Shown piece by piece: positions 30,759 through 51,843 of a stretch of DNA of 53,104 bases. The stretch's first letter is position 1. Every line of letters begins with the position of its first letter. The position numbers were made by a program, and so were the translations under genes. Location: IMG/VR virus record IMGVR_UViG_3300044991_002645, positions 1 to 53,104 of that record, one strand, 5' to 3'. The notes under the pieces are model-generated. The model had not been told where the DNA came from, did not search any database, and saw only the letters and a program-made list of their open reading frames with translations. The DNA comes from a virus.

Positions 30759-31109
30759 CTATCTTGAAAAAAAGTTGGGAAACGAATTGACGATGGCGCC
30801 AGTGGCCGCCCCCGCCATTCCTAATTTGAAGGGCGACGCACCCATGGCGAAACCGGCCGCCGCCCCGAACAAACCGCCTATGCCGCCGCCCACCGCCGCC
30901 CGACCCGCGAAACCCAGGACGTCGGAGAGTCCGAAACCCCCTGACGCGTCCGCCCGCTGCTCGAACGTGGGCCGGCCTGAGAACCCCCCGATGGGTATGG
31001 TCTTCATGCCGAGCACCGAGGAGTTCTCGTCCTCCAGCAGGCCGAAACCCGCCTCTTTGGCCATGTAGCCCGCGTTGAATCCGGCGGACCTCAGGGACTC
31101 AATCGTCAT
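30759..31109 (-). CDS. Glycine-zipper virion protein with full leader
   Basis: 116 aa from ATG 31109, which has GGAGG and overlaps the previous TGA. The leader is complete (SLRSAGFNAGYMAKEAGFG), one of the best matches to the shared motif. The C-terminal half is Gly/Ala zipper sequence (GGGIGGLFGAAAGFAMGASP) able to pack in membrane. Probably an internal virion protein that enters the host envelope; this is inferred from the motif. Confidence 0.6.
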   Translation of the reverse strand: MTIESLRSAGFNAGYMAKEAGFGLLEDENSSVLGMKTIPIGGFSGRPTFEQRADASGGFGLSDVLGFAGRAAVGGGIGGLFGAAAGFAMGASPFKLGMAGAATGAIVNSFPNFFSR

Positions 31110-31579
31110 TTGGAGCCTCCGTTTGTTGGTTTGGACCATTCCGGATAAGGCTCGGTGACTCCGTAATAGGGTTTGCTCCAGTCATGGTTGAGGGCCAGGG
31201 GCGCTATCAGCCCCAGAATGCCCGCGGCCACGGCCATTCGTCTGCGGGCGTCGGCCGGATCCATCTCCAATTTGGCGTTTATGTTGGCCTCCATCTCCGC
31301 GGAGTCGATCCCGGACACTGCGCCTAGGCCGCCGGCCAGCGTGCGCATGACGGGCTTATATCCGAAGTATCCGGCCGCCGCGGCGGCGGCCCCGAGAGCT
31401 AGCGACGCCCCCAATGGATTGTACGTCAGGGATCTGCCCGCCCTCAACGGGGCCGTGAGGTCCGCCTTGGCCAGCGAGTCGCCCCAGGCCATCGGGCCGT
31501 ACACATCGTTGGCCTCCATGCCCACGAGAGGGGGCAGGGCGTTGCCTTCCTTCAATGGATTATCCGTCGTGTAGCTCAA
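31106..31579 (-). CDS. Membrane-associated virion-cluster protein
   Basis: 157 aa if it starts at TTG 31579 (TTGA overlap with the previous stop, as at 16087), or four residues longer from ATG 31591. Two hydrophobic segments occur (GASLALGAAAAAAGYFGYKP and MAVAAGILGLIAPLALNH). The C-terminus is proline- and tryptophan-containing (YGVTEPYPEWSKPTNGGSK). Function unknown. Confidence 0.5.
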   Translation of the reverse strand: MSYTTDNPLKEGNALPPLVGMEANDVYGPMAWGDSLAKADLTAPLRAGRSLTYNPLGASLALGAAAAAAGYFGYKPVMRTLAGGLGAVSGIDSAEMEANINAKLEMDPADARRRMAVAAGILGLIAPLALNHDWSKPYYGVTEPYPEWSKPTNGGSK

Positions 31580-32436
31580 ACAGCCCCCCATTCCCTGCCG
31601 GACAGGTTGTACCCTCTTTTATTGTCGGCCAAAGCCGGGGCGGCCGTCTGCTGGCCATTGCCGCCCCGGCCGCCGAACATCGACTTGAACAGCGCCAGCG
31701 AGGCTATGCCCCCGCCGGCCAGCAACAAGCCCCCCAGCCCGTAGACCCAGGGCTTGTATTCGTCCCATTTATTGTTCGCGAACGTCTTGAATTGGGCCTC
31801 GACCTTGCCGTCGCCCGCCAACGATGGCAGCGCCCAGGCCGCCGCGGTCCTTTTTATCGGATCCTTGATGGCGTAGTTGAGCAGTCGCGGGTTCTTGGTT
31901 ATGTGATCGGTAAGGGCCTGTAGATCTTTGGCATTGTCATTTATGTTATAAGGGTTTAGCAATCCTGAGTTGGCCGCTGTCCACCAGGCGGAGGGATCGG
32001 TCAATCTATTCGACAACGTTGTTTTTAGTTTAGAGGCGGCGGTGGTCCGCAACTCCCTCATTTTATCCTGGTCCAAGTGGTCTCCAGTCAGCACGGAGCG
32101 TAAGGAGGCCCCGGGTTTGACCAAAGTTTTCAAACTGGAAGCCGACAGCCCCAGGTCCGTGTCGTTCACATCCTGCAGGACGGTGTATGCGGATGGTCCA
32201 AGGCGCCGGAGGTTCTCCGGCAAGGCCGCGGTGAATCCCTTCTCCCCCTCCATGTAGGTCTTGTCGTCGCTGGGCTGAATACTCCCATCCACCAGGAGAT
32301 CGGCCACTGGTTTGACCAGGCCCTTCGCGTCCAGCGCGGCGTTCGCTCCGTGTTTGGCGGCCTGGGCCACGATACCAACCTTCGGACTGGCCACGGCGAG
32401 TCCCTGCTCCAATATATCCTGCAACGACCAGGCCAT
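31576..32436 (-). CDS. Virion-cluster protein with C-terminal membrane segment
   Basis: 286 aa. The first 220 residues are helical and soluble (SAYTVLQDVNDTDLGLSASS, HITKNPRLLNYAIKDPIKRT). One membrane span follows (WVYGLGGLLLAGGGIASLAL) with a Gly/Asn/Gln-rich tail. AAAGGTG precedes the ATG, and a TATATTTA box lies 34 bases upstream. It is the first gene after the portal. No family recognised. Confidence 0.55.
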   Translation of the reverse strand: MAWSLQDILEQGLAVASPKVGIVAQAAKHGANAALDAKGLVKPVADLLVDGSIQPSDDKTYMEGEKGFTAALPENLRRLGPSAYTVLQDVNDTDLGLSASSLKTLVKPGASLRSVLTGDHLDQDKMRELRTTAASKLKTTLSNRLTDPSAWWTAANSGLLNPYNINDNAKDLQALTDHITKNPRLLNYAIKDPIKRTAAAWALPSLAGDGKVEAQFKTFANNKWDEYKPWVYGLGGLLLAGGGIASLALFKSMFGGRGGNGQQTAAPALADNKRGYNLSGREWGAV

Positions 32437-32469
32437 AATACACCTTTGACTGGGGTTCCACGCTTCTAG

Positions 32470-32479
32470 TAAATATAAC
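32470..32479 (-). promoter_or_regulatory. TATATTTA promoter-like box after the portal gene
   Basis: The minus strand reads GGGGTTATATTTACTAG between the portal stop and the next ATG at 32436 (34 bases). It shares the block GGGTTATATTTA with the box at 18181-18190. Confidence 0.6.
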
Positions 32480-32485
32480 CCCGAC

Positions 32486-34303
32486 TCACGCGGGGGGTTG
32501 CGCGGCCTGCTGGGCCTGGTTGCGGGCCGACGCCACGCCCTGCATGGCGGCGTCGTTCTCGTAGCCCTTCAGCACCTGGGTCACCTGCGCGTGCAGCGTG
32601 GGATTCTTGCCCTTCATATCGACCAGGGCCCTGCGCCTGTTGGTGGAGTCCAGGCCCATGATGCGCTGGGCCTCCTGCTCGGCCATGGCCATAAGGTCCT
32701 CTATGCCCCCCGGGTTGGCCATGGCCTGCGCGTTGGGGTCGCCGCCGGCCCGCCCGCGGGGCTGGCCGCCCTGGCCCCCCTGCTGCTGGGCCCCCGGCGG
32801 GGGCTGGGCCATCGCCTGGTAGAATTTCGCGGCGGCCTCCTGCTCCTTCTGCATCTCCATCAGGCGCTCCTGCTGGTCGCGCTCCTCCTCCAGCCGGCGC
32901 TCGAACTCGGTGTCGGCGTCTATGTCGAAAGACTTGAGGGCCGTCTGCTGGGATATGATCTTGCTGGCAGCCAGGTTCAACTTGACGTCCTTGGCCTTGT
33001 CGTCCTCGTACATCGAGGTGCGCAGCAGTTTGCCCTCTATGCGCTCCCACCCGTTGATGCGGGATATCTGCCCCAGGTACCAGTTGAGCCACTCGTCGAA
33101 GAGGCTGGTGTAGGGCAGCCAGCTGCGCTCGAACATGCGCAACGCTATGGGCGGGCCGCCCCATTTGGAGATGGACGACCTGTAGAACTCCTGCGGGACG
33201 CTCATGGACGTGAGCAGATTGTCCAGCGCGCGGTCCATCAACTCCACGGGGACGAGCTGCTTGGCCTCGCCGCCGAGCATCTGGTACTGCAGGGGCATCG
33301 GCATGATGCTCCAGGAGGTCGGATCGCGGCGGCGCTGCTTCAGCATGCTGGACACCCTGCCTGTGAAATCCCCCAAGTTGACTCCTATGAGGGGGTCGCG
33401 CCCACCCGGCGTGCCCTGCGGCGGGGTCAGCACGCGGAACGGGATGATGTAATCCATCGCGATGGCCTCGTTGTAGCGCTCGAGGATCATCAGATGGACC
33501 ACCTGGTTGAAACTGGACATGAACGGGGGCAGCCCCCATCCATTCAATTTGAATCTGAGCGTCGCGGGGGCCTCCGCCTTCAGATGCTTGAACGTGCTTT
33601 TATCGAACTTGAACCGGACGCCGTCCTTGATGGACTCGATCATCTCCCAAGGCATGGTGGCCAGCCAGATGTGGTCGCCGCGCTCCACCCCCTTGCGGAC
33701 CTCGGCGGGCGGGTCGAAGTAGTAGTCGGACTCGCCGGACACCGAGCAGTGCTCTATGGATATGAGGGCCGGGGGCCAGCGAATCGTGGTCACCCGGGCC
33801 TCCTCGGCCAAAGGCTTTGGCGCGTCCTCCCTTTTGAACTCCACGCCTTTGGTCCGGCATACGGGGCAGTCCCCCGTGAACTTCCAATTGGACCACTTGT
33901 AGTCCTCGTCCTTCTGCATATTGCGCAAGGGCCTGCTGGAGGAGCACTTAGGGCAGGTCAACGATCTGGAGATGGGCACGAGTATGGAGGTGAAGACGTT
34001 ACCGAAGAAAATCAAGTCGTCGGCGACGGTGGCCATGGTGTCCATCACGTTGGCCTTGCGGCTGAGGTAGTCCTGATACTTCTTGCGGACCCCCGCTCCA
34101 CCTTTGGCCTTCAACTCAATGCCGGTCATGAAATATCTGACGGACTTCCTAACGGCTGAAGAGTACATGCCATGCCTGAGGCTGAGCCATTCCCCCCACT
34201 CGAAGACGTCTTTCACGGTCCTCGGGTATATCAGATTGGAGAAACTGGCGAAGGGGTCCGGGAAATCCGCCACCTTCTCCGCTATCCTTGAGGTAACTGC
34301 CAT
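32486..34303 (-). CDS. Portal protein with zinc-ribbon insertion (probable)
   Basis: 605 aa. N-terminal and central sequence (WGEWLSLRHGMYSSAVRKSV, DLIFFGNVFTSILVPISRSL, then VVHLMILERYNEAIAMDYII) has the helix-and-strand pattern of large phage portals. A four-cysteine site is inserted (C117, C120, C146, C149; TCPKCSSS and DCPVCRTKG), which would bind zinc. The C-terminal 150 residues are Gln/Glu/Pro-rich (EEERDQQERLMEMQKEQEAA, PPPGAQQQGGQGGQPRGRAG), as in portal C-termini facing the capsid interior. AGGAG precedes the ATG. The portal call rests on pattern and context, not on a database hit. Confidence 0.65.
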   Translation of the reverse strand: MAVTSRIAEKVADFPDPFASFSNLIYPRTVKDVFEWGEWLSLRHGMYSSAVRKSVRYFMTGIELKAKGGAGVRKKYQDYLSRKANVMDTMATVADDLIFFGNVFTSILVPISRSLTCPKCSSSRPLRNMQKDEDYKWSNWKFTGDCPVCRTKGVEFKREDAPKPLAEEARVTTIRWPPALISIEHCSVSGESDYYFDPPAEVRKGVERGDHIWLATMPWEMIESIKDGVRFKFDKSTFKHLKAEAPATLRFKLNGWGLPPFMSSFNQVVHLMILERYNEAIAMDYIIPFRVLTPPQGTPGGRDPLIGVNLGDFTGRVSSMLKQRRRDPTSWSIMPMPLQYQMLGGEAKQLVPVELMDRALDNLLTSMSVPQEFYRSSISKWGGPPIALRMFERSWLPYTSLFDEWLNWYLGQISRINGWERIEGKLLRTSMYEDDKAKDVKLNLAASKIISQQTALKSFDIDADTEFERRLEEERDQQERLMEMQKEQEAAAKFYQAMAQPPPGAQQQGGQGGQPRGRAGGDPNAQAMANPGGIEDLMAMAEQEAQRIMGLDSTNRRRALVDMKGKNPTLHAQVTQVLKGYENDAAMQGVASARNQAQQAAQPPA

Positions 34304-34313
34304 GCCCCCGCTC

Positions 34314-34802
34314 CTATTCCATCACTATGAAGATTAAAGTCCTGCCTGCGGCCCCTCTATCGAACTCGGCCCCCATCGAGAGCAGCCTGGCTCCCGTCAA
34401 ACCCCCTGCCTCCGACGAGGCTGCCATGAAATCGTCCTCGGACGTGGCCTCTGGCGGGGACCATTTGAACCCCCGGGCCGGGAGGTCCACGAGGAGGAAC
34501 CCGTCCGCCTGGATCAACGCGGAGCACTCCAGCTCCACTTTGCCGAACCGCCCCGCCAGCGTCAAGTCCATGAATGGAATGCCCTCGGCCTCCTGCTCGC
34601 GGGGAGGGGGGCTCAGGCTGCGCGCGCCCTTTTTCTTGCCTGCGGCTGGACGGCCACCGCCGACCAGCCTTGCGGGCGGAGCCTGCCGCTCCATATTCTC
34701 ATGGGGATCGTAAGGCTGCGCCACCGCGTCGAAACCCGGCGGCGGGCCTCTCCTGACCACGCTCAAACCCTCATGCCTCGAATCCACCGATGCGTCTACC
34801 AT
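34314..34802 (-). CDS. Protein upstream of portal, unknown
   Basis: 162 aa with GGAGG before the ATG at 34802. The first 70 residues are Pro/Arg/Gly-rich and probably disordered. The second half appears globular and beta-rich (MDLTLAGRFGKVELECSALI, DGFLLVDLPARGFKWSPPEA, AGRTLIFIVME). It lies 10 bases before the portal gene. It could be a portal chaperone or head-tail connector, but no family is recognised. Confidence 0.55.
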   Translation of the reverse strand: MVDASVDSRHEGLSVVRRGPPPGFDAVAQPYDPHENMERQAPPARLVGGGRPAAGKKKGARSLSPPPREQEAEGIPFMDLTLAGRFGKVELECSALIQADGFLLVDLPARGFKWSPPEATSEDDFMAASSEAGGLTGARLLSMGAEFDRGAAGRTLIFIVME

Positions 34803-37494: not shown

Positions 37495-37713
37495 TTATTT
37501 AATGACTGATTTGGCTCCAGACTCCTGAAGCGCCGTGAATATGTTGCTCGCCCGGGCCACCGTGTTGCCCGCGCCGGTTCCGACGGCCCCGCCGGCCACG
37601 GCGCCTATGCCCGCCCCGCGCCAGCCGTCCACCAGGTAGCCGATGATCGTGCCTAGGGTCAAGCCGACGCCGGCGCCCGTGGCCGTGCCCTTCCACGTGT
37701 GTGCCTTGTCCAC
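37495..37713 (-). CDS. Glycine-zipper fragment (3' part of a frameshifted gene)
   Basis: 72 codons from GTG 37713. It carries the zipper GVGLTLGTIIGYLVDGWRGA followed by GIGAVAGGAVGTGAG. The frame stays open and protein-like upstream of the GTG (DYPFDKLPDRGDTDRVNSAA) to a G6/C6 run at 37796-37801, where it meets the 3' end of the leader ORF at 37785-37904 in another frame. I read it as the C-terminal part of one broken gene of about 135 codons. Confidence 0.6.
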   Translation of the reverse strand: MDKAHTWKGTATGAGVGLTLGTIIGYLVDGWRGAGIGAVAGGAVGTGAGNTVARASNIFTALQESGAKSVIK

Positions 37714-37784
37714 ATACCTTGCAGCGGAGTTGACCCTATCAGTATCCCCCCTATCGGGTAACTTATCAAAAGGATAATCGGAGA

Positions 37785-37904
37785 TTACACCCTCAGGGGG
37801 GTTCTATCATTCACGAATCTATCATTTCGGAGTTCGGCAAGAGCATTCTCATCAGATGCGTCATCCGCTTTCTTCATCATGGACAACATATTCGCCAATT
37901 CCAT
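37785..37904 (-). CDS. Leader fragment (5' part of a frameshifted gene)
   Basis: 39 codons from ATG 37904 with AAAGGTGG upstream. The product begins MELANMLSMMKKADDASDEN, giving the K-x-A pattern (K11-K-A13) at the usual leader distance. It ends TPLRV-stop just after the C6 run (minus strand) at 37796-37801. A one-base change or -1 slip there would read on into the zipper fragment at 37495-37713. Confidence 0.55.
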   Translation of the reverse strand: MELANMLSMMKKADDASDENALAELRNDRFVNDRTPLRV

Positions 37905-38854: not shown

Positions 38855-38941
38855 GTCACCTGCGCGGGCTGTCCATCCCGGTCGCTCATCCCATGAGGGC
38901 CTTCCTGTTGTTGTAGACGGCCGCCGCTCCCGCGCCCATGA
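38855..38941 (-). repeat. 87-bp direct repeat, copy 1
   Basis: Identical by eye to 39558-39644. It covers the last codons of the 199-aa gene (ending AAVYNNRKALMG) and its 3' flank up to the promoter-like box. The GC hairpin CCCGCG/CGCGGG at its edge exists only in this copy. Confidence 0.9.
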
Positions 38942-39485
38942 CGGCCCCCGCCGCGGTCTTCCGCCAATCGTGGCCGCCCGAGACGGCCCATTGGGCCAGG
39001 ACCGACGCCAAAGCGCCCACCGCGGCCCCCGATCCGGCCCAGGCGGCCTGGCCGGCCCAATCCACCCCCGCCGGAACAGCGGTTTTTTCGGAGGTGGCTG
39101 TTTTAGACTTATTAGCAGCCACACTCTTGGCAGCAGCCACACTCTTGGCAGCAGCCTTATTGACTATGTCTTGTTTCAGCCTTTGGAGTCCTTCATGATT
39201 TGTGCCCGAACCATCGGGCATCCCTTTTAAGAGAATGGCTTCAAGAGTCTGTTTCTCAACGAACAGCTTCTTCAGGGCTGCTGTATCCTCTCCGCCAATA
39301 AGGGGTGCCGCCCTTTCGTATACGGACTGGAGGCCCTTATAAGCCTTGCGGAACTCCGCCGCATCCGCGTTTATCTTCTCCGTCGGGGTCTGGCCCCCGG
39401 GCCTGCCGCCCTGCATGACTTGATCCGGCATGGCGCGCTTCTCGAGATACCCGCCCATGAAACTGGTGGTGTAGAGATTATCCAT
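38886..39485 (-). CDS. Helical virion protein with full leader
   Basis: 199 aa with AAGGGGA before the ATG. The leader is LYTTSFMGGYLEKRAMPD (K16-R-A18). The middle is helical and charged (FRKAYKGLQSVYERAAPLIG), followed by a short Ala/Lys/Ser repeat (AAAKSVAAAKSVAANKS) and a hydrophobic C-terminus. The last residues (MGAGAAAVYNNRKALMG) are the same as in the 101-aa protein at 39589-39894, being encoded by the 87-bp repeat. Confidence 0.6.
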   Translation of the reverse strand: MDNLYTTSFMGGYLEKRAMPDQVMQGGRPGGQTPTEKINADAAEFRKAYKGLQSVYERAAPLIGGEDTAALKKLFVEKQTLEAILLKGMPDGSGTNHEGLQRLKQDIVNKAAAKSVAAAKSVAANKSKTATSEKTAVPAGVDWAGQAAWAGSGAAVGALASVLAQWAVSGGHDWRKTAAGAVMGAGAAAVYNNRKALMG

Positions 39486-39557: not shown

Positions 39558-39644
39558 GTCACCTGCGCGGGCTGTCCATCCCGGTCGCTCATCCCATGAG
39601 GGCCTTCCTGTTGTTGTAGACGGCCGCCGCTCCCGCGCCCATGA
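39558..39644 (-). repeat. 87-bp direct repeat, copy 2
   Basis: Second copy of 38855-38941. It again spans the 3' end of a gene (39589-39894) and lies next to a TATATTA box, so gene end and promoter seem to have been copied together. Confidence 0.9.
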
Positions 39645-39894
39645 TCCCCGCTTGGCCTTTGGTGGACTCCCTGTTCTTGAGCGGGCCCTCCGAATTGGTC
39701 GGGGCCACCGTCTCGCGGCGGACGGTCATGTCGGGGACTCCGTCGGCTTTCGAGTCGACCTCCTTGGTGGACCTGTTGGCCACCGAGGCGGCCGGGTGCT
39801 CGTTGCCGACCGGGTTGCCGGGCTGGCCGTTGTTGATCAGGTCGGCGCGCTTCTCGAAATACCCGTTGAGGAATCCGTCTCTGTACAGGCTCAT
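39589..39894 (-). CDS. Small cargo protein with full leader
   Basis: 101 aa from ATG 39894 (AGGAG upstream). The leader is MSLYRDGFLNGYFEKRADLI (K15-R-A17). The remainder is polar and probably disordered (VANRSTKEVDSKADGVPDMT) before the repeated C-terminus MGAGAAAVYNNRKALMG. The short body suggests a reduced version of the 199-aa neighbour. Confidence 0.6.
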   Translation of the reverse strand: MSLYRDGFLNGYFEKRADLINNGQPGNPVGNEHPAASVANRSTKEVDSKADGVPDMTVRRETVAPTNSEGPLKNRESTKGQAGIMGAGAAAVYNNRKALMG

Positions 39895-39896: not shown

Positions 39897-40481
39897 CTAT
39901 CTCCTGGATTGCTGGCGTTGCGTGTCGGCGCTGGCCGCGCCGGAGGGGGTTCCAGCTCCGATCGAGCCCAGCCAACCTTGTATGGCCCCGCTGGCCTTGT
40001 TGCCGGCGTTGGATATGTCGGCCCTCGCTTTGGCAGACGCGGTGTTGACTTTGTCGGTCAGCTGCCGGGCCAGGGTGTCCCCCTTGATCCTGGGCAGGGC
40101 TTCGGCGCCCGCCTCGAGCGTGGCGTTGGCCACCTGCCCGCCGGAGCGGATCAATTGCTTGTTTATCTCGGTGCCCTTGTTCAGGTAGTTGGTCAGGAAA
40201 TTGCTGATCAGCGGCGCGTTGTGGCTCACGGCGGTGTCGACGGCGGGGGCCAGGTTGTCGGCGGCCGTGTTGACCAACTCGATCTGCGGCATGGCTGTGT
40301 TGACCAGATCCATGGCGTTGCGGTCGGCCGTGGTTGTCAAGTCCTTGCCCAGGCCCTCGGCCTTGCGCGCGACGTTCATGGACGTCCGCTCCCAGGGTGT
40401 GGGGACCGCCTGCTCCTCGTCGACGTCGGCCGCGCTCTTGTGCAGGTAACCCTCCATGAATCCAACTTTGTACGTTCCCAT
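39897..40481 (-). CDS. Helical cargo protein with full leader
   Basis: 194 aa from ATG 40481 (AAAGGAG upstream). The leader is MGTYKVGFMEGYLHKSAADV (K15-S-A17). The rest is helical and amphipathic, with repeated NTA/AxN patterns (MDLVNTAMPQIELVNTAADN, LTDKVNTASAKARADISNAG) like apolipoprotein-type lipid-binding or coiled-coil helices. No family recognised. Confidence 0.6.
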   Translation of the reverse strand: MGTYKVGFMEGYLHKSAADVDEEQAVPTPWERTSMNVARKAEGLGKDLTTTADRNAMDLVNTAMPQIELVNTAADNLAPAVDTAVSHNAPLISNFLTNYLNKGTEINKQLIRSGGQVANATLEAGAEALPRIKGDTLARQLTDKVNTASAKARADISNAGNKASGAIQGWLGSIGAGTPSGAASADTQRQQSRR

Positions 40482-40494: not shown

Positions 40495-41328
40495 TTATTT
40501 GCCTTTAGTCCGATACTCGTTCCATAGTTTAGAAACCTTGGCGCCGGCCTGGCCGGCCAGGTTGTAGGCTCCTTCAGTGACCGACCACGCCTGGCCAAGG
40601 GGTTTGCCCGAGGCCACCGAGTGGGCGTACGCGAACACCGGCGACCGCCTGGCCGTTGTGTCGGCCGCGGCGAGCGCCACCTCCTTGACCGCCCTGCCCG
40701 CGCCGCCGTCAAGCCAGCCGCGCAGCTTGTCGAGCGGGCGCTCCCGCTTGTCCTGCGCGAGGGCCCTGTACGCGGACTCGACCGCGTTCAACGCGGAATA
40801 GCCTTGGGCCTCCCACGCCCTCCTGGGGTCGTGCACCGTGGCCAGCGCCGCCCGGAACGGATGCGAGAAACCCCCAAGCGCCTGGCTGGCCTGGCCCGCC
40901 GCCCTTATGTATGACGGATACGACAGTTCGCCCTTGACGTCGGGGGTCAGCCTGTCGTGGTACACGTTCCAGGCCGTCTCGCCCGTGAGCTCTCCCGAGA
41001 AGGGGGTGGTGGTGGAGGTCACCCCGTCGGCTATGCCCTGCAACCCCCACACCACGGGCGAAACCCTCGCGCCCAGCTTGGCAGCGGCCCACGCGTCGAC
41101 CGCGGTGGCCGCCAGCGGGGTCAGCGCGTTCTGCGCCTCTTTCTCCTTGGCGGCGGCCAGCGCGACGGACTCCGCCGAGGCCATGGCTGCGCCGGCCGCG
41201 TCCGCCTCGGTGCGCGCCGCGGGCAGTCCGCCTATGCGTTTGGCCGCGTCGGCCTCGACCCGGCCGGCCGGCGTGTCGGCCGCCGATTTGAGCAGGTATC
41301 CCGCCATGTAGCCCGCAGCGTACATCAT
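40495..41328 (-). CDS. Alanine-rich cargo protein with full leader
   Basis: 277 aa with AAGGAGG before two adjacent ATGs. The leader is MMYAAGYMAGYLLKSAADT (K14-S-A16). A long Ala/Glu helix follows, then a more globular region (PFSGELTGETAWNVYHDRLT, AWEAQGYSALNAVESAYRAL) and a C-terminal helix (WSVTEGAYNLAGQAGAKVSK). A TATATTA box lies 35 bases upstream. No family recognised. Confidence 0.6.
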   Translation of the reverse strand: MMYAAGYMAGYLLKSAADTPAGRVEADAAKRIGGLPAARTEADAAGAAMASAESVALAAAKEKEAQNALTPLAATAVDAWAAAKLGARVSPVVWGLQGIADGVTSTTTPFSGELTGETAWNVYHDRLTPDVKGELSYPSYIRAAGQASQALGGFSHPFRAALATVHDPRRAWEAQGYSALNAVESAYRALAQDKRERPLDKLRGWLDGGAGRAVKEVALAAADTTARRSPVFAYAHSVASGKPLGQAWSVTEGAYNLAGQAGAKVSKLWNEYRTKGK

Positions 41329-41381: not shown

Positions 41382-41694
41382 TCATTCCCCGGAGTTCGAG
41401 TCGCAATCCGGCTCCGCCCGCTTGACCAGCGCTTTGGCCATCATGGCCAGCGTGAGGTTCCTCTTGTCCATGGCGGACGCGGGCATGGACCCCCCGAAGT
41501 GGTTTTGCGCTCCAATGGCCAGATCAACCATGTCCAGCTCGTCCAACCCCTGCGAGGCCGGCGGCTTGCCTGGTTTGAGGGCGCCCAGGCCGGCCTCCCC
41601 GGCGTGGCGCGCCAGCGCCTAGTTCAACTTCGTTTGACGTCTCTCGATAGTCGGTCCAACCTCTAGCCCGGTCCGGTACAAGCCGCACGGTCAC
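41382..41694 (-). pseudogene. Small gene with apparent one-base frameshift
   Basis: Translation likely starts at GTG 41694, overlapping the previous TGA as GTGA (TVRLVPDRARGWTDYRETSN and on). That frame runs into low-complexity basic sequence and stops at 41524. A different frame from 41618 to TGA 41382 reads protein-like (LARHAGEAGLGALKPGKPPA, LDMVDLAIGAQNHFGGSMPA) and ends MMAKALVKRAEPDCDSNSGE, with a K-R-A site. Dropping one G at 41618-41619 joins NEVEL to ALARHAG. An intact gene would encode about 104 residues; a shorter product from the internal ATG is also possible. Confidence 0.45.
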
Positions 41695-43160
41695 TCCCGC
41701 TCGGTCGATCCAGCTGCTATGGAGGCGGGTGCGCCGACGCCGCCCACCACGTAAGGCAGCGTGCGTGACAGCAGTCCGGACAGCGTCCGCCTGTCCTCCG
41801 GCGTGGACGTCGCTAGATCCGGATAGATGTGGTGCAGGCCGTAGCCTAGCGCCGCGGCCTGCGGATCCACTTCGGTCACAGCCGCCGCCTCGTCGAGTTT
41901 GCCATCCAGGATGGGCCGGTAGGACTCGGCTAGCCGCTGCGCGGGGGTCTTGGCGTAATCCTCCGCCCCGGCCGCCATTCCGCGCTCGAAAGCCTTGACG
42001 TCCCTGCCGTCCCATGTCGGTCTGACGGGCACGGGCGCTGGCGCCTTAATCCCCTGGAAAGTCACTCCGCCGGCCGGGTTGTTGGCCAGCGAGGCCTTCA
42101 TCCCGGACAGCACGGGCAGCAGCTCCGCGCCGATGCCGTACCCACCCTTATCCGCGATGAACTTCTGCATTTCGTCGAACGCGCCGCCGACTGGCGGGGG
42201 CGACCGCAAATCGAACGCGGCCAGCGGATGTTCGCCCGGCACGGCCGTCCTCGGGGCCCTGCTGACGGCGGCGTGCGCTACCTCGTGCGCCAGGGAGTTT
42301 GGATCCCCGACGCCGTTCAATCCAACCCCCTCGCTCATTTTGTAGGAGCCGTCCGGATTGGGAACTACGCTGCGCAGCGAAATTTTCGCAGGTTGGCCCG
42401 GAACTGGCGCCATGGTAACGCCGGTCCACCCGGCCATCGGGTGGCCGGCCAGCGACGCCTCGTCGGTGTCTGTGAGCCGGTATGATCGGAATGGCACGCC
42501 GTCGCTAAAGTTCCGACCGTCCGCTCGATTGTCCTGCTTACCGCTGTCGCCTGGCGACCGCTTGTACGGACCTATGGGTTGGTTGGACTCCAGCCAAGCG
42601 GCGTCCTCCGGACTCAGCCTAGATCTGTTGTCCTCTACGGACTTCACGTAATCCTCGCCGTGTATTCCTTTAACGAACCTGTCTCGCTGGTTGTAAGAGC
42701 CCTCGATGGCCGAGGGGATGTGCAATCTTCTTGTGTAGGCTCCCTCGCCCGCCGCGAGCTGATCGGTAGTCAACTGCACCGTGGGCTCATAGTTTCCGAG
42801 CCGGTAGCCTTCCGCGGCCACGGCCGGTCTAAGCTGGCTCGGCTTGAACGGCCAGTTGGTCATCGGCTGATCGTAGCCTATAGGACTCGAAGGGAGCAAC
42901 GCCGAGTATACGCCGTCGCCGCCTGGAAATCTATCGGCGGCCGTGCGCATAGCCCCGGACTCCAGCCCGGGCGACGGTTTGGTGGTGTCCGACTTGACCG
43001 CCCATATCTCATCCGAGATGGTCTTCGGATCTTTAACCGTATCGGTGGTGCCCCCAGGCTTCTCGATCGGAACCGTTTTCTTTTTGCCGAGAAGACCGGA
43101 CCACAAAGCCGCCTCTTTGCTCAAGTACCCCGTCTGATGGCCTAACGCGCGCATGTCCAT
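41691..43160 (-). CDS. HExxH metallopeptidase-like cargo protein with leader
   Basis: 489 aa from ATG 43160 (AAAGGTGA upstream). The leader is MDMRALGHQTGYLSKEAALW (K15-E-A17). After a polar N-terminal region comes a zinc-peptidase motif NSLAHEVAHAAVSRAP (HEVAH at about 292-296). The motif is followed by FDEMQKFIADKGGYGIGAEL and then helical sequence with FERGMAAGAEDYAKTPAQRL. It would be a zinc hydrolase acting on host or virion protein after ejection; substrate unknown. It is one of five HExxH proteins in this block. Confidence 0.6.
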   Translation of the reverse strand: MDMRALGHQTGYLSKEAALWSGLLGKKKTVPIEKPGGTTDTVKDPKTISDEIWAVKSDTTKPSPGLESGAMRTAADRFPGGDGVYSALLPSSPIGYDQPMTNWPFKPSQLRPAVAAEGYRLGNYEPTVQLTTDQLAAGEGAYTRRLHIPSAIEGSYNQRDRFVKGIHGEDYVKSVEDNRSRLSPEDAAWLESNQPIGPYKRSPGDSGKQDNRADGRNFSDGVPFRSYRLTDTDEASLAGHPMAGWTGVTMAPVPGQPAKISLRSVVPNPDGSYKMSEGVGLNGVGDPNSLAHEVAHAAVSRAPRTAVPGEHPLAAFDLRSPPPVGGAFDEMQKFIADKGGYGIGAELLPVLSGMKASLANNPAGGVTFQGIKAPAPVPVRPTWDGRDVKAFERGMAAGAEDYAKTPAQRLAESYRPILDGKLDEAAAVTEVDPQAAALGYGLHHIYPDLATSTPEDRRTLSGLLSRTLPYVVGGVGAPASIAAGSTERE

Positions 43161-43221: not shown

Positions 43222-43998
43222 TCAGTCCGCAGCCGCCGGCTGCTGGTCCTTAGTCCAAAAAGCGCCTCCGAGATTGGCCAGTCCTTGAATGGCCTGCGGA
43301 TTCAACATATCCCAGGCGCCGGCGGCGGCGCCCTTGGCCGCGGAGCCAACTACGCTGGTCCCGGAGCCGTCCAGGCTGTCGGTGGCCGCGGCGGAGCCCC
43401 ACGGCGCGTTGTCCATCAGGTTGTGGCCGGTCTGCTGGGCGTAGCCTTGGACTCTGTCCACCCACGAGTCCGAGTTCATAAGTTGGCCGTTCTCGTCCTC
43501 CAAAGTCTTGTTCCACTTCGCTGCGGCCGAGGCCGCGTCGAGATCGGCTCCGGCGTATGGGTTCCAGCTGGCTTTCACCGCCTGGCCCAGGCCGCGCACA
43601 GCCGTAGTGCCCAGCTCCGCGGCGAGCAGCGGCGGCGCGGCGTACGCCCACGGCGCCCAGGCCGTCGGATTTACCGCAGCCAGCTGGTGAGCGTGGGCTA
43701 TCCACGGGGCCACCCTGCCGGACTGCTCCAGCATCTGCCCGCCCATGTCGGCCGCCATAGCTCCGAGACCCAACGGCGCCGACGGCACGTATCCGCCGGC
43801 CGCGTTCTGCTCCACCGGCATGTTGCCGTCATCCAGGAACGAGAAGAATGGATTGTCCAGGCCAAAGGTCAGCTTGGGCCCCAGGTTGGAGGCCTGCCTA
43901 TTCCTGTTGGCGAGGGCGGACCTGGCCTGGACCGGGTTCATGGGGCCGGCCGCCTCCTTGCCGTAGCCGTGTAGAAAACCTTGCTCGTAGAGTGTCAT
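43222..43998 (-). CDS. Cargo protein with leader, unknown
   Basis: 258 aa. The leader is MTLYEQGFLHGYGKEAAGP (K14-E-A16). The body is Ala/Gly/Pro/Trp-containing (SGRVAPWIAHAHQLAAVNPT, AWAPWAYAAPPLLAAELGTT, AAAKWNKTLEDENGQLMNSD), with moderately hydrophobic stretches but no clear span. GAGGGA is 10 bases before the ATG. No family recognised. Confidence 0.55.
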   Translation of the reverse strand: MTLYEQGFLHGYGKEAAGPMNPVQARSALANRNRQASNLGPKLTFGLDNPFFSFLDDGNMPVEQNAAGGYVPSAPLGLGAMAADMGGQMLEQSGRVAPWIAHAHQLAAVNPTAWAPWAYAAPPLLAAELGTTAVRGLGQAVKASWNPYAGADLDAASAAAKWNKTLEDENGQLMNSDSWVDRVQGYAQQTGHNLMDNAPWGSAAATDSLDGSGTSVVGSAAKGAAAGAWDMLNPQAIQGLANLGGAFWTKDQQPAAAD

Positions 43999-44071: not shown

Positions 44072-44896
44072 TTAGCATTGGCCTGATCGATGGCGAAGCT
44101 CTTCAAGAGCTCCCCCGTCGACTCGCTGTGGACCCCGCACTCCCATACGCGCGTAACCCAGCAAACCCAGCGCGGCCGCGCCGCCGGCCCCACCTACAAG
44201 GGCCCCCTTGGTGTCGCCGGCCTCCGTGAAGGGCATGCCGCCCATGGCGAGCCCCGCGGCCGCCGACACGCCCTTATCTTTGACCGATGCCTGCTTGCCC
44301 ATGTATCCGGCCCTGAATCCGATTCCGCGCGCCTGCTTGTCCATAGTGGTCTCCAGTTGTTTTATGTATTGCGGCGGCACGACGCCCCCCTTGACCATCA
44401 CCCTCGGATGCCTGACGCCCGTGAGCAGCGGGACGCCTTTGGCCCTGTTCGCCCTGACGCGCCTGGCCATGATGGCTGGCGCGGCCATGTTGGCCTCGTC
44501 CATTATCAGTCCGGCCCTGCGCAGGCCCTCGACGTCCACCTCCAGCGGCACCCTGTCCGAGAACGGCCAGCCGTTCCGCTCCAATATGCCGGGGGCCCTG
44601 GCGGCCTGGGCCGGACTGAAGCCGTAGAACCAGTCGCCGCCGGAGTCGGCCAGCGTGTCGCCGCGGATGGCCTTCAAGGCCAGGATGGCCCTGTCGGCGG
44701 CCGGGGCGTCCGGCGGCAGGTCCCCGGCCAGCCCGTCGTACCGCGCCTGGTGCTCCGGGCGCAGCTTGAGCTGCTTGAGGTACCTGGCCAGGTTGGCGGC
44801 GCCCTCGGGGCGGCCTTTGGCGTGCAGGGCCTGGGCGGTCATCAACCCCTCGGCCAGTATGCCGGGCAAGGCCTCCCTGGGCGCGTGGTGTATCAT
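44072..44896 (-). CDS. ART-like N-terminal domain, then internal leader and glycine zipper
   Basis: 274 aa in the intact frame. Residues 1-20 (MIHHAPREALPGILAEGLMT) resemble the opening of ADP-ribosyltransferase-fold proteins, in which H-x-x-x..L..I..EGL forms the NAD pocket edge. VPLEVDVEGLRRAGL and VRHPRVMVKGGVVPPQYIKQ complete a 180-residue domain. Then comes a complete internal leader (GIGFRAGYMGKQASVKD, 191-207) and a Gly/Ala zipper. The last residues in this frame (GGALEELRHRSGQC) look wrong. A one-base shift at the G5 run 44112-44116 would instead read GELLKSFAIDQANAKKLDEG and end at 44011. The ART call is tentative. Confidence 0.5.
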   Translation of the reverse strand: MIHHAPREALPGILAEGLMTAQALHAKGRPEGAANLARYLKQLKLRPEHQARYDGLAGDLPPDAPAADRAILALKAIRGDTLADSGGDWFYGFSPAQAARAPGILERNGWPFSDRVPLEVDVEGLRRAGLIMDEANMAAPAIMARRVRANRAKGVPLLTGVRHPRVMVKGGVVPPQYIKQLETTMDKQARGIGFRAGYMGKQASVKDKGVSAAAGLAMGGMPFTEAGDTKGALVGGAGGAAALGLLGYARMGVRGPQRVDGGALEELRHRSGQC

Positions 44897-44903: not shown

Positions 44904-45542
44904 TCAGTTCCGGGGAGCCGACGCCACCTGCCATCCGGCGGACGGGGCCGCGGGCAGGTTGAGGGGCGGATTGGCGGAGGGGGCGGCCGGCTGGTTGTTC
45001 CGATCCGTCCATTTGGGCACGTCGGCCAACTTCAATTTGCCGTTCAGCACCTGTTGGCGGATGTTTTTCCTCGATGCGTCCATGGCGGCCGGGCTCATCC
45101 GGCCCGCGTTGATCCGGGACCACTCCTTGAGGGCTGCGTCGGTCCCTCCGGTGGACCCCACTTTGATTCCCACCTCCCCGGCGCTGCCGTCGGCGTTGGC
45201 CACCCGGCGCTTGTCCCCGGCCCGCGTGTGCGCGGCGTTGTCGTGTATGAGGGCGGGGTCTCCGGCGGGCTCCATGGACAATGGAGTCTGGGGGAGGGGC
45301 TCGTTGCCCGGCGTGTACGGGCTGAGGGTCTCCCCTGGTTTCGGGGATGGGTTGACGCGCTCCCTGTCCTGGAGGTTCAGACTCCCCGACGTGGAGTCGG
45401 CGCGCAGGCCGGGGGCGGCGGGGCTGGCCGCGGGCCGGGCCGACTCCGACCAGGCCTGCGACGGTTTGGCCGGATCCCTCAATTCGTCGCCGGCCTCTTT
45501 GCGGAGGTAGCCCTGCCTGAATCCAATGGTCAGCATGTTCAT
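44904..45542 (-). CDS. Cargo protein with leader, disordered body
   Basis: 212 aa from ATG 45542, with a GGGGG-type site. The leader is MNMLTIGFRQGYLRKEAGDE (K15-E-A17). The following 100 residues are Pro/Ser/Ala-rich. A small globular helical segment is visible (GTDAALKEWSRINAGRMSPA, MDASRKNIRQQVLNGKLKLA). No family recognised. Confidence 0.55.
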   Translation of the reverse strand: MNMLTIGFRQGYLRKEAGDELRDPAKPSQAWSESARPAASPAAPGLRADSTSGSLNLQDRERVNPSPKPGETLSPYTPGNEPLPQTPLSMEPAGDPALIHDNAAHTRAGDKRRVANADGSAGEVGIKVGSTGGTDAALKEWSRINAGRMSPAAMDASRKNIRQQVLNGKLKLADVPKWTDRNNQPAAPSANPPLNLPAAPSAGWQVASAPRN

Positions 45543-45544: not shown

Positions 45545-45898
45545 TCACACCCCCTGCGAAGGCTGCGCCGGGCCCTTGGCCGCGGGTTTGGCGGCCGTGG
45601 CGAACTGCCCGGCCAGCTCCTTGCACTGCGTTATCTCGGCGTCCAGCTGCACTTTCTGCTGCTCGAGCTGGGTGACCTTCTGCTGGACCTGCATCAACTG
45701 ATCGGGCGTCAGGGCCGGGGTGGCCTGCGGCTGCTGGGCGGTGGGCTCGGGCCCATTGGTCATCCCTGCGGCTGTCTGCTCGGCGGGGGCCGCCTGCTGC
45801 AGCAGGCCCGACGTGGGCAGCTGGGGCTGCTGGGGCTGCTCGCCCTCCGCTCGCTTTTCGAGGTATCCTCTCATGAAACCTGTGGTGTACAAACTCAT
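45545..45898 (-). CDS. Small coiled-coil cargo protein with full leader
   Basis: 117 aa with AAAGGAG before the ATG. The leader MSLYTTGFMRGYLEKRAEGE (K15-R-A17) is followed by a Gln/Pro/Ala linker and a coiled coil (DQLMQVQQKVTQLEQQKVQL). A TTATATTA box lies 44 bases upstream. Function unknown. Confidence 0.65.
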   Translation of the reverse strand: MSLYTTGFMRGYLEKRAEGEQPQQPQLPTSGLLQQAAPAEQTAAGMTNGPEPTAQQPQATPALTPDQLMQVQQKVTQLEQQKVQLDAEITQCKELAGQFATAAKPAAKGPAQPSQGV

Positions 45899-46113: not shown

Positions 46114-46119
46114 CTCATT

Positions 46120-47913: not shown

Positions 47914-47933
47914 CGTGTCAGTCCCCCTATGCG

Positions 47934-50135
47934 TCAAGCCGGAAACCCTGATCTGCCCTGCCGCCGGGCGGAGGCCACGGCGGCCCCCTCCCCTGGCGTC
48001 AGCGTGCTCATTCCTATCAGCATGCCCGCCATGGCGCCCACCAGCGCGCCCGCCATCACGCCGCCCATCCGGGCCGCGGCGTGAGTCGCGGGGCCCGAAC
48101 CCTCCGCCAGGGCACCGCCCGCCCAGCCCCCGGCGAGGGCTCCGGCGAAGCCTGTGCCTAGCGGCAGGTAGGCGAGCTTGCGCCGTATTCCAGGCGAGGC
48201 CTCCTCCGGGTGGATCGCCAGCCGGCCGAACTGCTTCTCCGCGCTGGCCGCCGCCTTCAGCAGACACGCGCCCCCGCTCCTGGCCGGGCGGCCGGCCTGC
48301 TTGCCCAGGTAGCCGGCCTCGAAGCCCGCCTGCTTGCCTATCTGGCCGCCGGGGCCCGCGTCCACAAGGGCCGGGGCCAGCCGCCTGTACTGGTCCAGCA
48401 GCCACGACTCCTTGTCAGGCCTGCTTTTATACAGGCGCAGATAGCGCATGGCCCTCTTCGCCTCGGTGTCCATGCCAGAATCCCGCAGCTGGCCCTCGAA
48501 AGCGTCGTCCGTCACATCCGGGCCGTAGGGGGGCAGCCGCAGCCTGAGCGCGTCGCGGCTCAGGGGCCGGTCCTGGCCGGACGAGTCGTCAAGCAGCCGG
48601 GACCCCTTCGCGCCGTAGGACCACGCGTTCAGCGCCTGGACGGCCGGCTCCAGCTCCATGGGGTTGGTGTACGGGTAGGCGTCCGCCTTGTCCGGATCGG
48701 ACGACATGTCCTCGACTATCCGGCCGCTTTTGCCTGTGGCGGCCGGCCGGGACTCGCTCCTGGCTCCCACATCATCCTTGTACTCCTGGCCGTTGCGACC
48801 CACAGTGTACTTGTGCGTGAACTCGTGCCGCAGCAGCTTCAGCCAGTCGGTGCCGTCGCCGGGGCGGACCCCGTTGGTCGTCAGGGCGGCATCGGCCCGC
48901 TGCCTGTACTCGTCGGCGTCCCCGAACGGGGATATGCCCAGCCTCGGATCCATTCCGCGCCCCAAAATCAGCGACCCGCCGCCGTTGCCGCCGGTCAGTG
49001 CCCAGCCCGTCCTGCCGCCCGGCTCGTACCTGAACGTGAAGGGCTCCTTGAACGCGTCGAGGTTGAACGGAATCCCCGCCCGCTCGGCGTAGCCCTTGGC
49101 CCGGGACCGCTCCCTCTCCGCCGCCTCCCCGTACGTCCCGGACAGGAAAAGGCGGGCGGGATCCTGGACCACGTACTTCTCGTGGTAGTCCGGGGAGCGC
49201 GTCTCAATAGGGGGCCGGGGCGCGCCCCGCTCGGGGAACTCCCTCTCGATGGCGCCGGAGGCCGCCAGCGCGTCAAGCGCGCTGGCGGACCCCTCCATGT
49301 CCCTGAGCATGGCGGCCTCGTGCTCCCGCTCCCTCTCGTCCGAGCCGACCGAGCCGCTGGCTGATTTCGCCATGTATCCCGACTTGAATCCGATCTCGTA
49401 CGCTTGCTTGCTCATAGACTTCTCGTGTGTTGACTCCGCTTGGGAGTTCTGTTTAGTGATGCCCGTCGTGAGCGGGACGAACTTGCGCTTGGCCGGGGCC
49501 GGCTTGACGACAGGCTCGGCCACCTGCTTCGGCGCGGGCTTCGCCGGAGTCCTGTCCGGAACCTTGGACTCGTCTATTATGGTCTGCCGCGGCCGCTGGT
49601 TGTCGAACCACAGCTGGTCGACCACCTCCGCATTGTCGCCGTCCTCTATCATGTTGGCCACCACGCCGGCGCGGGCCGGCCCGACCTGCTTGGCGTATAG
49701 GCTGTCGGACGCCTCTGCTCCGGCGGCCTCGAAGTCCCCCGCCTCCAGCGCGTCCCTCATGTCGGTGAACGTGGCGAGCCGTTTCGGCCCCATGTTGTAC
49801 AGCATGTTCTTCAGACCGGCCTCGCGCGTGGAGTCCAGTTCGACGCCCGGGAGCAGTTTGGCCACCTCTTTAGCGCCGGAGTCGTAGACGGCCACGGCCT
49901 CGTCGGCGTGGTCCATCAGCGAGCCGGACTTGGGCGCCGCCCCGCCTGTGAGTCCGAACGGCTGCGTCCACACCTTGCCGACGGGATCCCAGGTCGGTTT
50001 CCAGCCCTTAGCCGACGACTTGTCCTCGGCGTAGCCCTCCTGCTTGAGCAGAGTGTGGGCGCCGACGGACGGCGCGTCGGCGGCCTGTTTCAGCAGGCCC
50101 ATCGCGTAGCTTCTTTTTATCTCTTCGGCGGTCAT
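47934..50135 (-). CDS. Three-module polyprotein: GH24-type lysozyme, HExxH peptidase, glycine zipper
   Basis: 733 aa with GAGG before the ATG. Module 1: leader AMGLLKQAADAP (K16-Q-A18), then a T4-type lysozyme-like domain with candidate catalytic Glu33 (LLKQEGY), WDPVGKVWTQPFGLTG, and the core LKNMLYNMGPKRLATFTDMR followed by SDSLYAKQVGPARAGVVANM. Module 2: leader AYEIGFKSGYMAKSASG (245-261), then a peptidase-like domain with LLRHEFTHKYTVGRNG (HEFTH 437-441) and a possible third ligand in NPMELEP. Module 3: leader KQAGFEAGYLGKQAGRP (601-617), then Gly/Ala membrane segments. Each leader sits at a domain border, as if to allow separate packaging or cleavage. Confidence 0.7.
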   Translation of the reverse strand: MTAEEIKRSYAMGLLKQAADAPSVGAHTLLKQEGYAEDKSSAKGWKPTWDPVGKVWTQPFGLTGGAAPKSGSLMDHADEAVAVYDSGAKEVAKLLPGVELDSTREAGLKNMLYNMGPKRLATFTDMRDALEAGDFEAAGAEASDSLYAKQVGPARAGVVANMIEDGDNAEVVDQLWFDNQRPRQTIIDESKVPDRTPAKPAPKQVAEPVVKPAPAKRKFVPLTTGITKQNSQAESTHEKSMSKQAYEIGFKSGYMAKSASGSVGSDEREREHEAAMLRDMEGSASALDALAASGAIEREFPERGAPRPPIETRSPDYHEKYVVQDPARLFLSGTYGEAAERERSRAKGYAERAGIPFNLDAFKEPFTFRYEPGGRTGWALTGGNGGGSLILGRGMDPRLGISPFGDADEYRQRADAALTTNGVRPGDGTDWLKLLRHEFTHKYTVGRNGQEYKDDVGARSESRPAATGKSGRIVEDMSSDPDKADAYPYTNPMELEPAVQALNAWSYGAKGSRLLDDSSGQDRPLSRDALRLRLPPYGPDVTDDAFEGQLRDSGMDTEAKRAMRYLRLYKSRPDKESWLLDQYRRLAPALVDAGPGGQIGKQAGFEAGYLGKQAGRPARSGGACLLKAAASAEKQFGRLAIHPEEASPGIRRKLAYLPLGTGFAGALAGGWAGGALAEGSGPATHAAARMGGVMAGALVGAMAGMLIGMSTLTPGEGAAVASARRQGRSGFPA

Positions 50136-50156
50136 TTGAAACCTCGGTTTATTTTA

Positions 50157-50176
50157 GCGCCCGGCTTCCCGGGCGC
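50157..50176 (-). terminator. Hairpin between the 548-aa and 733-aa genes
   Basis: A perfect 8-bp stem GCGCCCGG/CCGGGCGC with a 4-base loop is followed on the minus strand by TAAAATAAACC, not a clean T run. It lies 22 bases before the next ATG and could act as a weak terminator or processing site. Confidence 0.4.
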
Positions 50177-50196
50177 AGGCGCATACGCGCGCGGCC

Positions 50197-51843
50197 TCAA
50201 ACCACCACCTTGGCCCAGTCGTTGGCGGCTCCTCTTCCGGCCAGGACCCCGGGGGCGATCCTGCGCAGCGTCTCGTCGTACCACTTCTGCCTGGCCGGGT
50301 CCTTGTCGTAGTTGCGGCGGTACCTTATGGCCCTGGCCTCCTCGTCGGTCAGCCCGTCCTCGTCGAGCATCTTCTGCAGCGCGTCGTCGTCGGGGGCGGC
50401 GAAGTATCTGCCCAGGGCGCCTTGGTACTCCTCCGGCGTCATCTGCCTGTTGTCGCCTTTGTCGTCCACTCCCCAGGCCCCCTTGCCGGTGGCCCTGGTC
50501 AGCCCCCTGTTGAGCGCTCCGGCGGCCGGCGTCCACTCCAGAGGTACCTGCTCAACGTAGCTGAGCGGACGGCCGGAGGCGTCAGGAGGCCGAAAGGCGT
50601 CGGGGACGCCTCCCGCGTCGGTCATCGCCGGAACGGTCTTGGCGTGGCTGACCTCGTGGCCCAGCACGTCCACTCCGCTGCGCATCCACGTGTCCGCGGC
50701 CTCCTCCGGCGCGGTTGGCCCGCCGGCCCCCACGGGAATCCCGAGTGACTGCAGCGTCCTCCTGGGGCTCAAGCCGTTTCTCAAAGGATTGACGCTCCAC
50801 TCGTCGTAGTTGTGTATGACGCTCGGGGCTCCTCCGCCCAGGATGTTGGCCTGGTCGCCTATGGTCACCACTCCTGTGCGCCCGTCGTAGTTGGGGCCCG
50901 ACCCGGGGACCCCGTCCGGAGCGACCGAGACTCGGGTCGGCTTGTTGTAGTCGGCCATCCTGTACGGGAATCCGTTCGCCTCGTTGTACTTGTCCGCCGC
51001 CTTGATCCTGTTCTGCGTGTCCGCGCCCCACGTCCTGCGCAGTAGCGCGTCGGCCGGGCTCGGCATCACCCAGCTGGACTGCTCCGGATTTCCTGGGGCG
51101 GAGCCCGGGCTGGCGGCGGAGCTGGAGGCCAGGTCGGCTCCCTTGGAGCCTGGCGCGGCCGGCTCTGCCTGGCCGGACAGCTGGAAGTTCCGCATCAGAC
51201 GCTCGCCGCCCGCGGCCGCCTTCCGCTCCATCTTGGCCGCCGTGGCGGCCTCCCGGGACGCCTTCTCCTCGGGAGCCTCCTCCGGGGCTTTGCCTATCAG
51301 CGAGTCCAGTCCCCCCGGCCCGAACGGCCCGGCCTCCTTGGCCAGGTAGCCCGCCCTGTACCCCGCCTGCTTGGCCATGTCCGCGGCGGGCGCGGCCTGC
51401 GGCGCAGGCTGTGACGCGGGCATGACCCCGTACTTGTCCCTGTAGGCCAGGGCCTCCTCGGGCGTTATCGGGCTGCCCGCCGCCTCGAAGGCCCGCTGTA
51501 TCTTCTCGGGCTTCGCGATGTTGCTGCCGCCCTTCAGGTAGTCCACGCTGAACGGCACGCCGCGCGCCTTGAACATCTTGCCGAACTGGTCCCTGCGCCA
51601 CAGGAACTCCCGGATCTTGCCGTCGGCTCCGATGACCTTGCGGTCAGGGTCCTTCAGCTTGGCCGCGGCCAGCATCTGCAGCGCGAACATGCAGTCCTGC
51701 AGCTCGCCGTCAAGCTCCTTTGAATCGTCGCCGGCGAGGGCCTGGTGGAACTCGTCCAGCTCGCCCTTCAGGTAGTCGGGGCCGTAGTCGCGGTCGCCCA
51801 GCAGCTGTTTTTTTATGTAGCCGTACTTGTAGCCTGGCATCAT
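50197..51843 (-). CDS. MazG-like domain, internal leader, then HExxH peptidase-like domain
   Basis: 548 aa. The N-terminus has a degenerate leader (YKYGYIKKQLLGD). Residues 24-60 show the MazG pattern E-x-x-E, then E-x-x-D (E28, E31, E47, D50; GELDEFHQAL and ELDGELQDCMFALQMLA), typical of all-alpha NTP pyrophosphohydrolases. A complete internal leader (MAKQAGYRAGYLAKEAGPFG, 156-175) precedes a second domain with GVDVLGHEVSHAKTVP (HEVSH 397-401). Its C-terminus (RAIRYRRNYDKDPARQKWYD, TLRRIAPGVL) matches that of module 2 in the 733-aa protein, so the peptidase domains are paralogous. Confidence 0.6.
   Translation of the reverse strand: MMPGYKYGYIKKQLLGDRDYGPDYLKGELDEFHQALAGDDSKELDGELQDCMFALQMLAAAKLKDPDRKVIGADGKIREFLWRRDQFGKMFKARGVPFSVDYLKGGSNIAKPEKIQRAFEAAGSPITPEEALAYRDKYGVMPASQPAPQAAPAADMAKQAGYRAGYLAKEAGPFGPGGLDSLIGKAPEEAPEEKASREAATAAKMERKAAAGGERLMRNFQLSGQAEPAAPGSKGADLASSSAASPGSAPGNPEQSSWVMPSPADALLRRTWGADTQNRIKAADKYNEANGFPYRMADYNKPTRVSVAPDGVPGSGPNYDGRTGVVTIGDQANILGGGAPSVIHNYDEWSVNPLRNGLSPRRTLQSLGIPVGAGGPTAPEEAADTWMRSGVDVLGHEVSHAKTVPAMTDAGGVPDAFRPPDASGRPLSYVEQVPLEWTPAAGALNRGLTRATGKGAWGVDDKGDNRQMTPEEYQGALGRYFAAPDDDALQKMLDEDGLTDEEARAIRYRRNYDKDPARQKWYDETLRRIAPGVLAGRGAANDWAKVVV

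Follow-up and report, generated by a model that had tools for sequence, protein, structure and literature searches.

A shared N-terminal leader ending in K-x-A as a candidate capsid-targeting propeptide in a large phage clade

Unrelated late proteins of a phage may be addressed to the head by a common N-terminal leader, which displays the consensus G-[FYH]-x-x-G-Y-[LMF]-x-K-x-A and opens nine predicted proteins of IMG/VR record IMGVR_UViG_3300044991_002645 (positions 1 to 53,104; 53,104 bases, hereafter the window), probably a fragment of a phage genome. The K-x-A that closes the leader also occupies fixed positions in the major capsid protein and in the predicted head-maturation protease. Judging from sequence comparison, we consider it likely that K-x-A is the site of this protease, and that the longer leader acts as a capsid-targeting propeptide similar to those of phage T4, removed after packing.

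The leader in the window

One of the nine leaders is a residue shorter than the others (Table 1), and all nine read as the original prediction described them. Past the leader, BLASTP finds no similarity among the nine proteins except for a short C-terminal stretch, AAAVYNNRKALMG, common to open reading frames (ORFs) 39894 and 39485. The claim that unrelated sequence follows the leader hence stands, this pair excepted. At the invariant leader residues the codons differ (GGT/GGA/GGC/GGG; AAG/AAA; GCG/GCC), therefore it is the protein sequence that is conserved, and not DNA that was recently copied. Shorter K-x-A starts had also been listed, and the ten that were checked all hold.

Internal copies of the leader core, listed earlier for ORFs 44896, 50135 and 51843, are present in all three of these long proteins, with two in ORF 50135. 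Each of the four is accompanied by a further K-Q-A just upstream. The simplest reading of these cassettes is that they are fused genes of tagged cargo, the products of which would be cut apart in the head; the cassette in ORF 50197-51843 is a possible polyprotein linker.

Enrichment against chance was computed for a curated set of 46 genes (37 head-side and 9 tail/fibre-side), using residues 2-36 and 5,000 within-protein shuffles. Hydrophobic-x-K-x-A is found in 23 of the 37 head-side proteins, compared to 2.5 ± 1.5 in shuffles, and none of the 5,000 shuffles reaches this number. For K-x-A the count is 25/37 (8.1 ± 2.4 in shuffles). A control segment of the head-side proteins, residues 101-135, contains the hydrophobic motif in 4 of 31 cases, and residues 2-36 of the tail/fibre-side genes in none of nine. 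The enrichment near the N-terminus exceeds chance, and the motif is not equally common elsewhere. An all-against-all comparison of non-homologous proteins, which makes no use of the motif, displays 25 similar pairs of N-terminal 30-mers versus 1 pair of internal 30-mers. Its top nine members are exactly the nine leader proteins.

K-x-A in head proteins and in relatives

The site in the capsid protein is the most informative of all. This protein is devoid of the long leader, but carries K27-E28-A29. The original prediction, by which the capsid and cement proteins lack the leader, is correct for the cement-like protein and for the long form in the capsid protein; it missed the K-x-A of the latter. 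In an alignment of 30 capsid sequences K27 is invariant and A29 is kept in at least 90%. Among the capsid proteins of about 80 relatives, most have K-x-A approximately 8 residues before a conserved [FY]-[IV]-R-x-K-L-R-E helix, and the rest of the N-terminus is variable. The model of the capsid protein adopts the HK97 fold (E 3.8e-10 in the Foldseek match to HK97), with K-x-A just ahead of the body of this fold; the site is therefore predicted to mark a propeptide of about 29 residues. The preference derived from the capsid sites is G at P6, L/M at P5, K at P3 and A at P1, while N-terminal K-x-A sites of other proteins, compared with internal ones, prefer Y/G at P6, L at P5 and E at P4. Among the outlier capsid proteins (the L082 group, L153 and L157) only the L082 group has K-L-G; proteins neighbouring the outlier capsid proteins of the L082-L086 group keep K-x-A. 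A changed site (L-x-E) was considered for L153 and L157 and rejected: in both, a K-x-A lies a few residues further upstream, and K-x-[AS] is retained in the other proteins of these relatives.

In the predicted protease, K35 and A37 immediately precede the protease domain, and are kept in 94% and 93% of 67 non-redundant homologues. A further K-x-A near the C-terminus is common among homologues (VEKRAS, VEKRAS and IEKKAG in three relatives). H119 and S171, a candidate catalytic His/Ser pair, are invariant in the alignment, and a conserved Cx2C...CxH motif suggests metal binding. Of 31 homologues, 24 match the PHROG family of head maturation proteases, phrog_18299, with a best E of 1.9e-12; the window protease alone gives no match reaching phrog_18299 and no good match in Pfam. 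A single-protein search for its relatives in viral contigs found none, and an alignment-based search found 204. In most relatives, 3-20 K-x-A sites are found in the product of the gene right after the protease, which is the natural place for a scaffold. The sites in protease, scaffold and capsid hence follow the distribution expected of a head-maturation protease that acts on itself, the scaffold and the capsid. An origin of the leader as a copy of a scaffold segment was also considered, as THGYLRGLEKKAED of the window scaffold is by eye close to GFMRGYLEKRAE with one residue missing, but is not supported.

Relatives were searched for in 50,697 phage records with the capsid, portal and protease proteins. 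For the capsid protein the matches, at 28-29% identity, are in Salmonella phage Arash and Vibrio phages D69, D148 and D181; these four phages have portal, polymerase and protease genes in common with the window as well. Matches in this search comprise these phages and a weak protease match in phage G, and are not phiKZ-like (Chimalliviridae). Alignment searches of viral contigs added 80 loci each for the capsid protein and the protease. Whole contigs were read for a set of relatives' records, D69 and Arash (one of them minus its last 926 bases). The clade is large, mostly uncultured and largely undescribed, and includes Arash.

The G-F-x-x-G-Y-L form is found in the window and in one relative, the nearest (G001; GYxxGYLxKxA), which has a GC content of 44% compared to 64% in the window. 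Further relatives have shared leaders of their own: AFxDELxKI[AS] in G018, SFxDELxKI[AS] in G016, YLIKQA in G004, YLEKIA in G011, AAAFGRMMGKxA in G008 and YLxKxA in G005. As these differ and end alike, the putative address part appears to turn over, and the predicted cut site to persist. Within 30 kb of the capsid gene in ten relatives, a set in which the genes of capsid, protease and scaffold are also counted, 120 of 616 genes have N-terminal hydrophobic-x-K-x-A versus 34 expected (3.5-fold); in the rest of these genomes the motif is at chance level (70/1247, 61 expected). In Arash, 8 of 55 proteins annotated as structural have the motif versus 3.4 expected (16 of 1,000 shuffles reach this), the record being silent on how this annotation was made; for its other proteins the count is 7/171 with 8.0 expected. 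The proposal that K-x-A is a protease site and the leader a packaging or cleavage signal is supported by this concentration near capsid genes, the near-invariance of K-x-A in the relatives' capsid proteins and proteases, its repetition in their scaffolds, and the different shared leaders of other members, which close with this site too.

Gene order and candidate cargo

The minus strand of the window reads as a late module. In the direction of transcription it consists of long cargo-like genes (51.8-30 kb, the portal gene among them), RNA polymerase, head protease, scaffold, cement-like protein, capsid protein and tail/fibre genes. Assignment of the genes beyond the capsid gene to tail and fibres is probable; a probable fibre protein has collagen-like GPQG repeats at 5508-7232. 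The genes of the multisubunit RNA polymerase sit among the head genes, and their product is possibly a virion polymerase.

Inspection of leader-bearing proteins in relatives points to ADP-ribosyltransferase-like proteins with YHGT, HExxH proteins that are zinc-metallopeptidase-like, and many glycine-rich membrane-like segments; glycine-zipper proteins are among the cargo candidates. Among the Pfam matches in relatives are AAA_33 for a P-loop protein (E 5.9e-6) and an SNF2 helicase that also has a LigD-type domain. In the window, protein 47913 contains HELAHAL, and those leader proteins that were searched against Pfam and PHROGs have no significant match. It is plausible from their sequences that such candidates are proteins ejected into the bacterial host. 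Frame 37904 ends after 39 amino acids and a second frame resumes at 37713 (window 37495-37904), which suggests that this cargo gene is broken or frameshifted. ORFs 38801 and 37713-37495 have in common a hydrophobic block rich in glycine, LGTIIGYLVDGWRGAG, and a close copy of it is present in 36653.

Table 1. Leaders, internal cassettes, predicted cleavage sites and genes of the late module, in window coordinates.
Feature	Position	Strand	ORF or remark
Long leader MSLYTTGFMRGYLEKRA	45848..45898	-	ORF 45545-45898
Long leader MNMLTIGFRQGYLRKEA	45492..45542	-	ORF 44904-45542
Leader variant MTLYEQGFLHGYGKEA, one residue shorter	43951..43998	-	ORF 43222-43998
Long leader MDMRALGHQTGYLSKEA	43110..43160	-	ORF 41691-43160
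Long leader MMYAAGYMAGYLLKSA	41281..41328	-	ORF 40495-41328
Long leader MGTYKVGFMEGYLHKSA	40431..40481	-	ORF 39897-40481
Long leader MSLYRDGFLNGYFEKRA	39844..39894	-	ORF 39589-39894
Long leader MDNLYTTSFMGGYLEKRA	39432..39485	-	ORF 38886-39485
Long leader MTIESLRSAGFNAGYMAKEA	31050..31109	-	ORF 30759-31109
Internal cassette MAKQAGYRAGYLAKEA, two K-x-A sites around leader core	51331..51378	-	ORF 50197-51843, core at 51360
Internal cassette MSKQAYEIGFKSGYMAKSA	49359..49415	-	ORF 47934-50135, core at 49388
Internal cassette IGKQAGFEAGYLGKQA	48294..48341	-	ORF 47934-50135, core at 48323
Internal cassette MDKQARGIGFRAGYMGKQA	44288..44344	-	ORF 44072-44896, core at 44317
Portal protein	32486..34303	-	Shared with Arash, D69, D148, D181
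RNA polymerase beta fused to N-terminal part of beta'	21896..29059	-	Two intein/LAGLIDADG insertions
RNA polymerase beta', C-terminal part	18192..20078	-	
Predicted head-maturation protease	12362..13834	-	Invariant H119 and S171; Cx2C...CxH motif
K35-R-A37, predicted self-cleavage site	13724..13732	-	Just before protease domain
K446-R-A448 (QKRAS), predicted C-terminal self-cleavage site	12491..12499	-	Near protease C-terminus
Predicted scaffold	11376..12353	-	Gene after protease; 10 K-x-A sites
Cement-like protein	10409..10954	-	Without K-x-A leader
Major capsid protein	9437..10396	-	HK97 fold predicted
K27-E28-A29, predicted propeptide cleavage site	10310..10318	-	Capsid protein

Proposed mechanism, alternatives and known systems

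We hypothesize that the leader is an N-terminal propeptide of two parts, an upstream address and a hydrophobic-x-K-x-A end. The latter would be recognized by the phage's own protease, with a predicted cut after the alanine. The upstream part (G-F-x-x-G-Y-L here, other sequences elsewhere) would bring unrelated cargo into the prohead core during assembly. Once the shell has closed, the protease would cut at K-x-A in its own chain, many times in the scaffold, in the capsid propeptide (after A29) and in the leaders of the cargo. Fragments would then leave, DNA would be packaged, and mature cargo would stay with the DNA until ejected into the host. Internal cassettes flanked by K-x-A may allow one long precursor to be packed and then cut into several products.

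Several observations weigh against this mechanism. Gene starts were taken from a simple gene caller. A PDB sequence search found no relative of the protease. In a comparison of the protease model with 350,542 PDB chains, the two chains of T4 gp21 rank 1 and 2, yet with E 0.28-0.31 and probability 0.66-0.82 this fold match is below significance. In an ungapped leader-profile scan of each genome, the scaffold ranked neither high among the proteins of its own genome nor above the scaffolds of other genomes. A few capsid proteins deviate, with K-L-G in the L082 group and a shifted K-x-A in L153 and L157. Six relatives (G002, G003, G014, G015, G017 and Arash) have the K-x-A part only and no shared long leader. 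The composition of the near-capsid gene set, given above, belongs here as well.

Some of this would also fit a different view of the upstream part, in which K-x-A is the protease site, G-F-x-x-G-Y-L merely extends the surface recognized by the protease, and proteins enter the head by other means. Relatives without a shared long leader favour this view, as does the capsid site preference, which with G at P6 and L/M at P5 already overlaps the G-Y-L of the leader. However, in the mechanism proposed here one enzyme cuts the long leader as well as the phage's own capsid, protease and scaffold sites, and these sites are much shorter and less strict than the leader. Between relatives the long leader differs completely, whereas the K-x-A core does not. 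We therefore regard mere extended recognition as rather unlikely. Still less probable, in our estimate, is a leader that is not removed and docks to the portal, the RNA polymerase or an inner-core protein, with K-x-A as part of a docking helix. Location of the leader genes in one late module with the portal and polymerase genes, and the amphipathic F/Y-Y-L pattern, would agree with docking, but docking would leave unexplained why K-x-A is found where the capsid propeptide ends, ahead of the protease domain and all along the scaffold. An effect of chance or composition might be suspected given the GC content of the window and predicted proteins that look rich in alanine and glycine, as might recent duplication of one DNA segment. 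The shuffles, internal segments and tail/fibre-side genes are all negative, leader codons differ, and the same pattern is present in relatives of 32-63% GC. Together with the 30-mer comparison and the contrast between genes near to and far from the capsid gene, this refutes a chance origin, and we give chance or duplication practically no weight.

The proposed propeptide resembles the capsid-targeting sequences of T4 (IPI-III, Alt; protease gp21) in being a short N-terminal sequence common to diverse proteins. It also shares its terminal site with the capsid propeptide and the scaffold, and in T4, too, core/scaffold proteins and the propeptide of the capsid protein are substrates of the head protease. 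Alt of T4 is an ADP-ribosyltransferase, and ADP-ribosyltransferase-like proteins are among the cargo candidates here. The T4 cleavage consensus is L/I-x-E. This ends in glutamate, in contrast to the hydrophobic-x-K-x-A described here, which does not follow the T4 motif. In addition, the leader sequences are unrelated to those of T4, the cargo set is larger and includes internal cassettes, and the protease is longer than gp21, with Cx2C...CxH and conserved N- and C-terminal K-x-A sites. In T4, propeptides of 10-20 residues direct head-internal proteins to the core, and the head protease takes these propeptides off (PMC5694885, PMC3012670).

Phages SPN3US and phiKZ (proteases gp245 and gp175) are likewise large phages with a multisubunit RNA polymerase, the head protease of which processes the capsid protein, inner head proteins and itself, and two processed paralogues with identical N-terminal 15 residues are reported (PMC5694885, PMC10052503). 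Their motifs, in contrast, end in glutamate (A-x-E in SPN3US, S-x-E in phiKZ; PMC5694885), several propeptides exceed 100 residues, and the accessible portions of these papers describe no broad shared leader. For DarB of phage P1, the first 30 residues are enough for a reporter to enter the head; this is one protein, and the available part of that report gives no shared leader family and no K-x-A site (PMC9024508). Bacillus phage G gp19 is remotely homologous to the protease (26% identity, E 2e-3), with K-x-A near the N-terminus (LVKTAAK) and LEKVAS and LLKIAS at the C-terminus. In this phage (L300, 11209-18601) K-x-A is also present near the N-terminus of the portal gp14 (MAKQAAS) and of the neighbours gp20 and gp21, whereas the capsid protein gp27 shows none. 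K-x-A specificity may thus extend to phage G. A search of open-access papers yielded neither a head-protease site of the K-x-A type nor any paper on phage Arash. New with respect to described cases are the predicted cut-site specificity, the leader sequences, the clade and the divergent protease. The original prediction of a new system is apt for specificity and clade, and too broad for the proposed targeting and processing logic, which is T4-like.

A wider picture may be drawn for this clade, in which a lineage-specific address tag is rewritten in concert across the cargo of a phage while K-x-A is kept, many diverse and possibly ejected proteins are loaded, and tandem cassettes give rise to polyproteins inside the capsid. 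We hold this picture to be about equally likely to be right or wrong. If the proposed mechanism is true, head cargo and its matured N-termini could be predicted across the clade, including its culturable phages, from hydrophobic-x-K-x-A near the N-terminus of proteins encoded close to the capsid genes; most such proteins are without annotation. The mechanism would also provide lists of candidate ejected proteins (ADP-ribosyltransferase-like, metallopeptidase-like and membrane proteins), a new head-protease specificity, and natural leader variants for probing how the prohead core of large phages recognizes its cargo.

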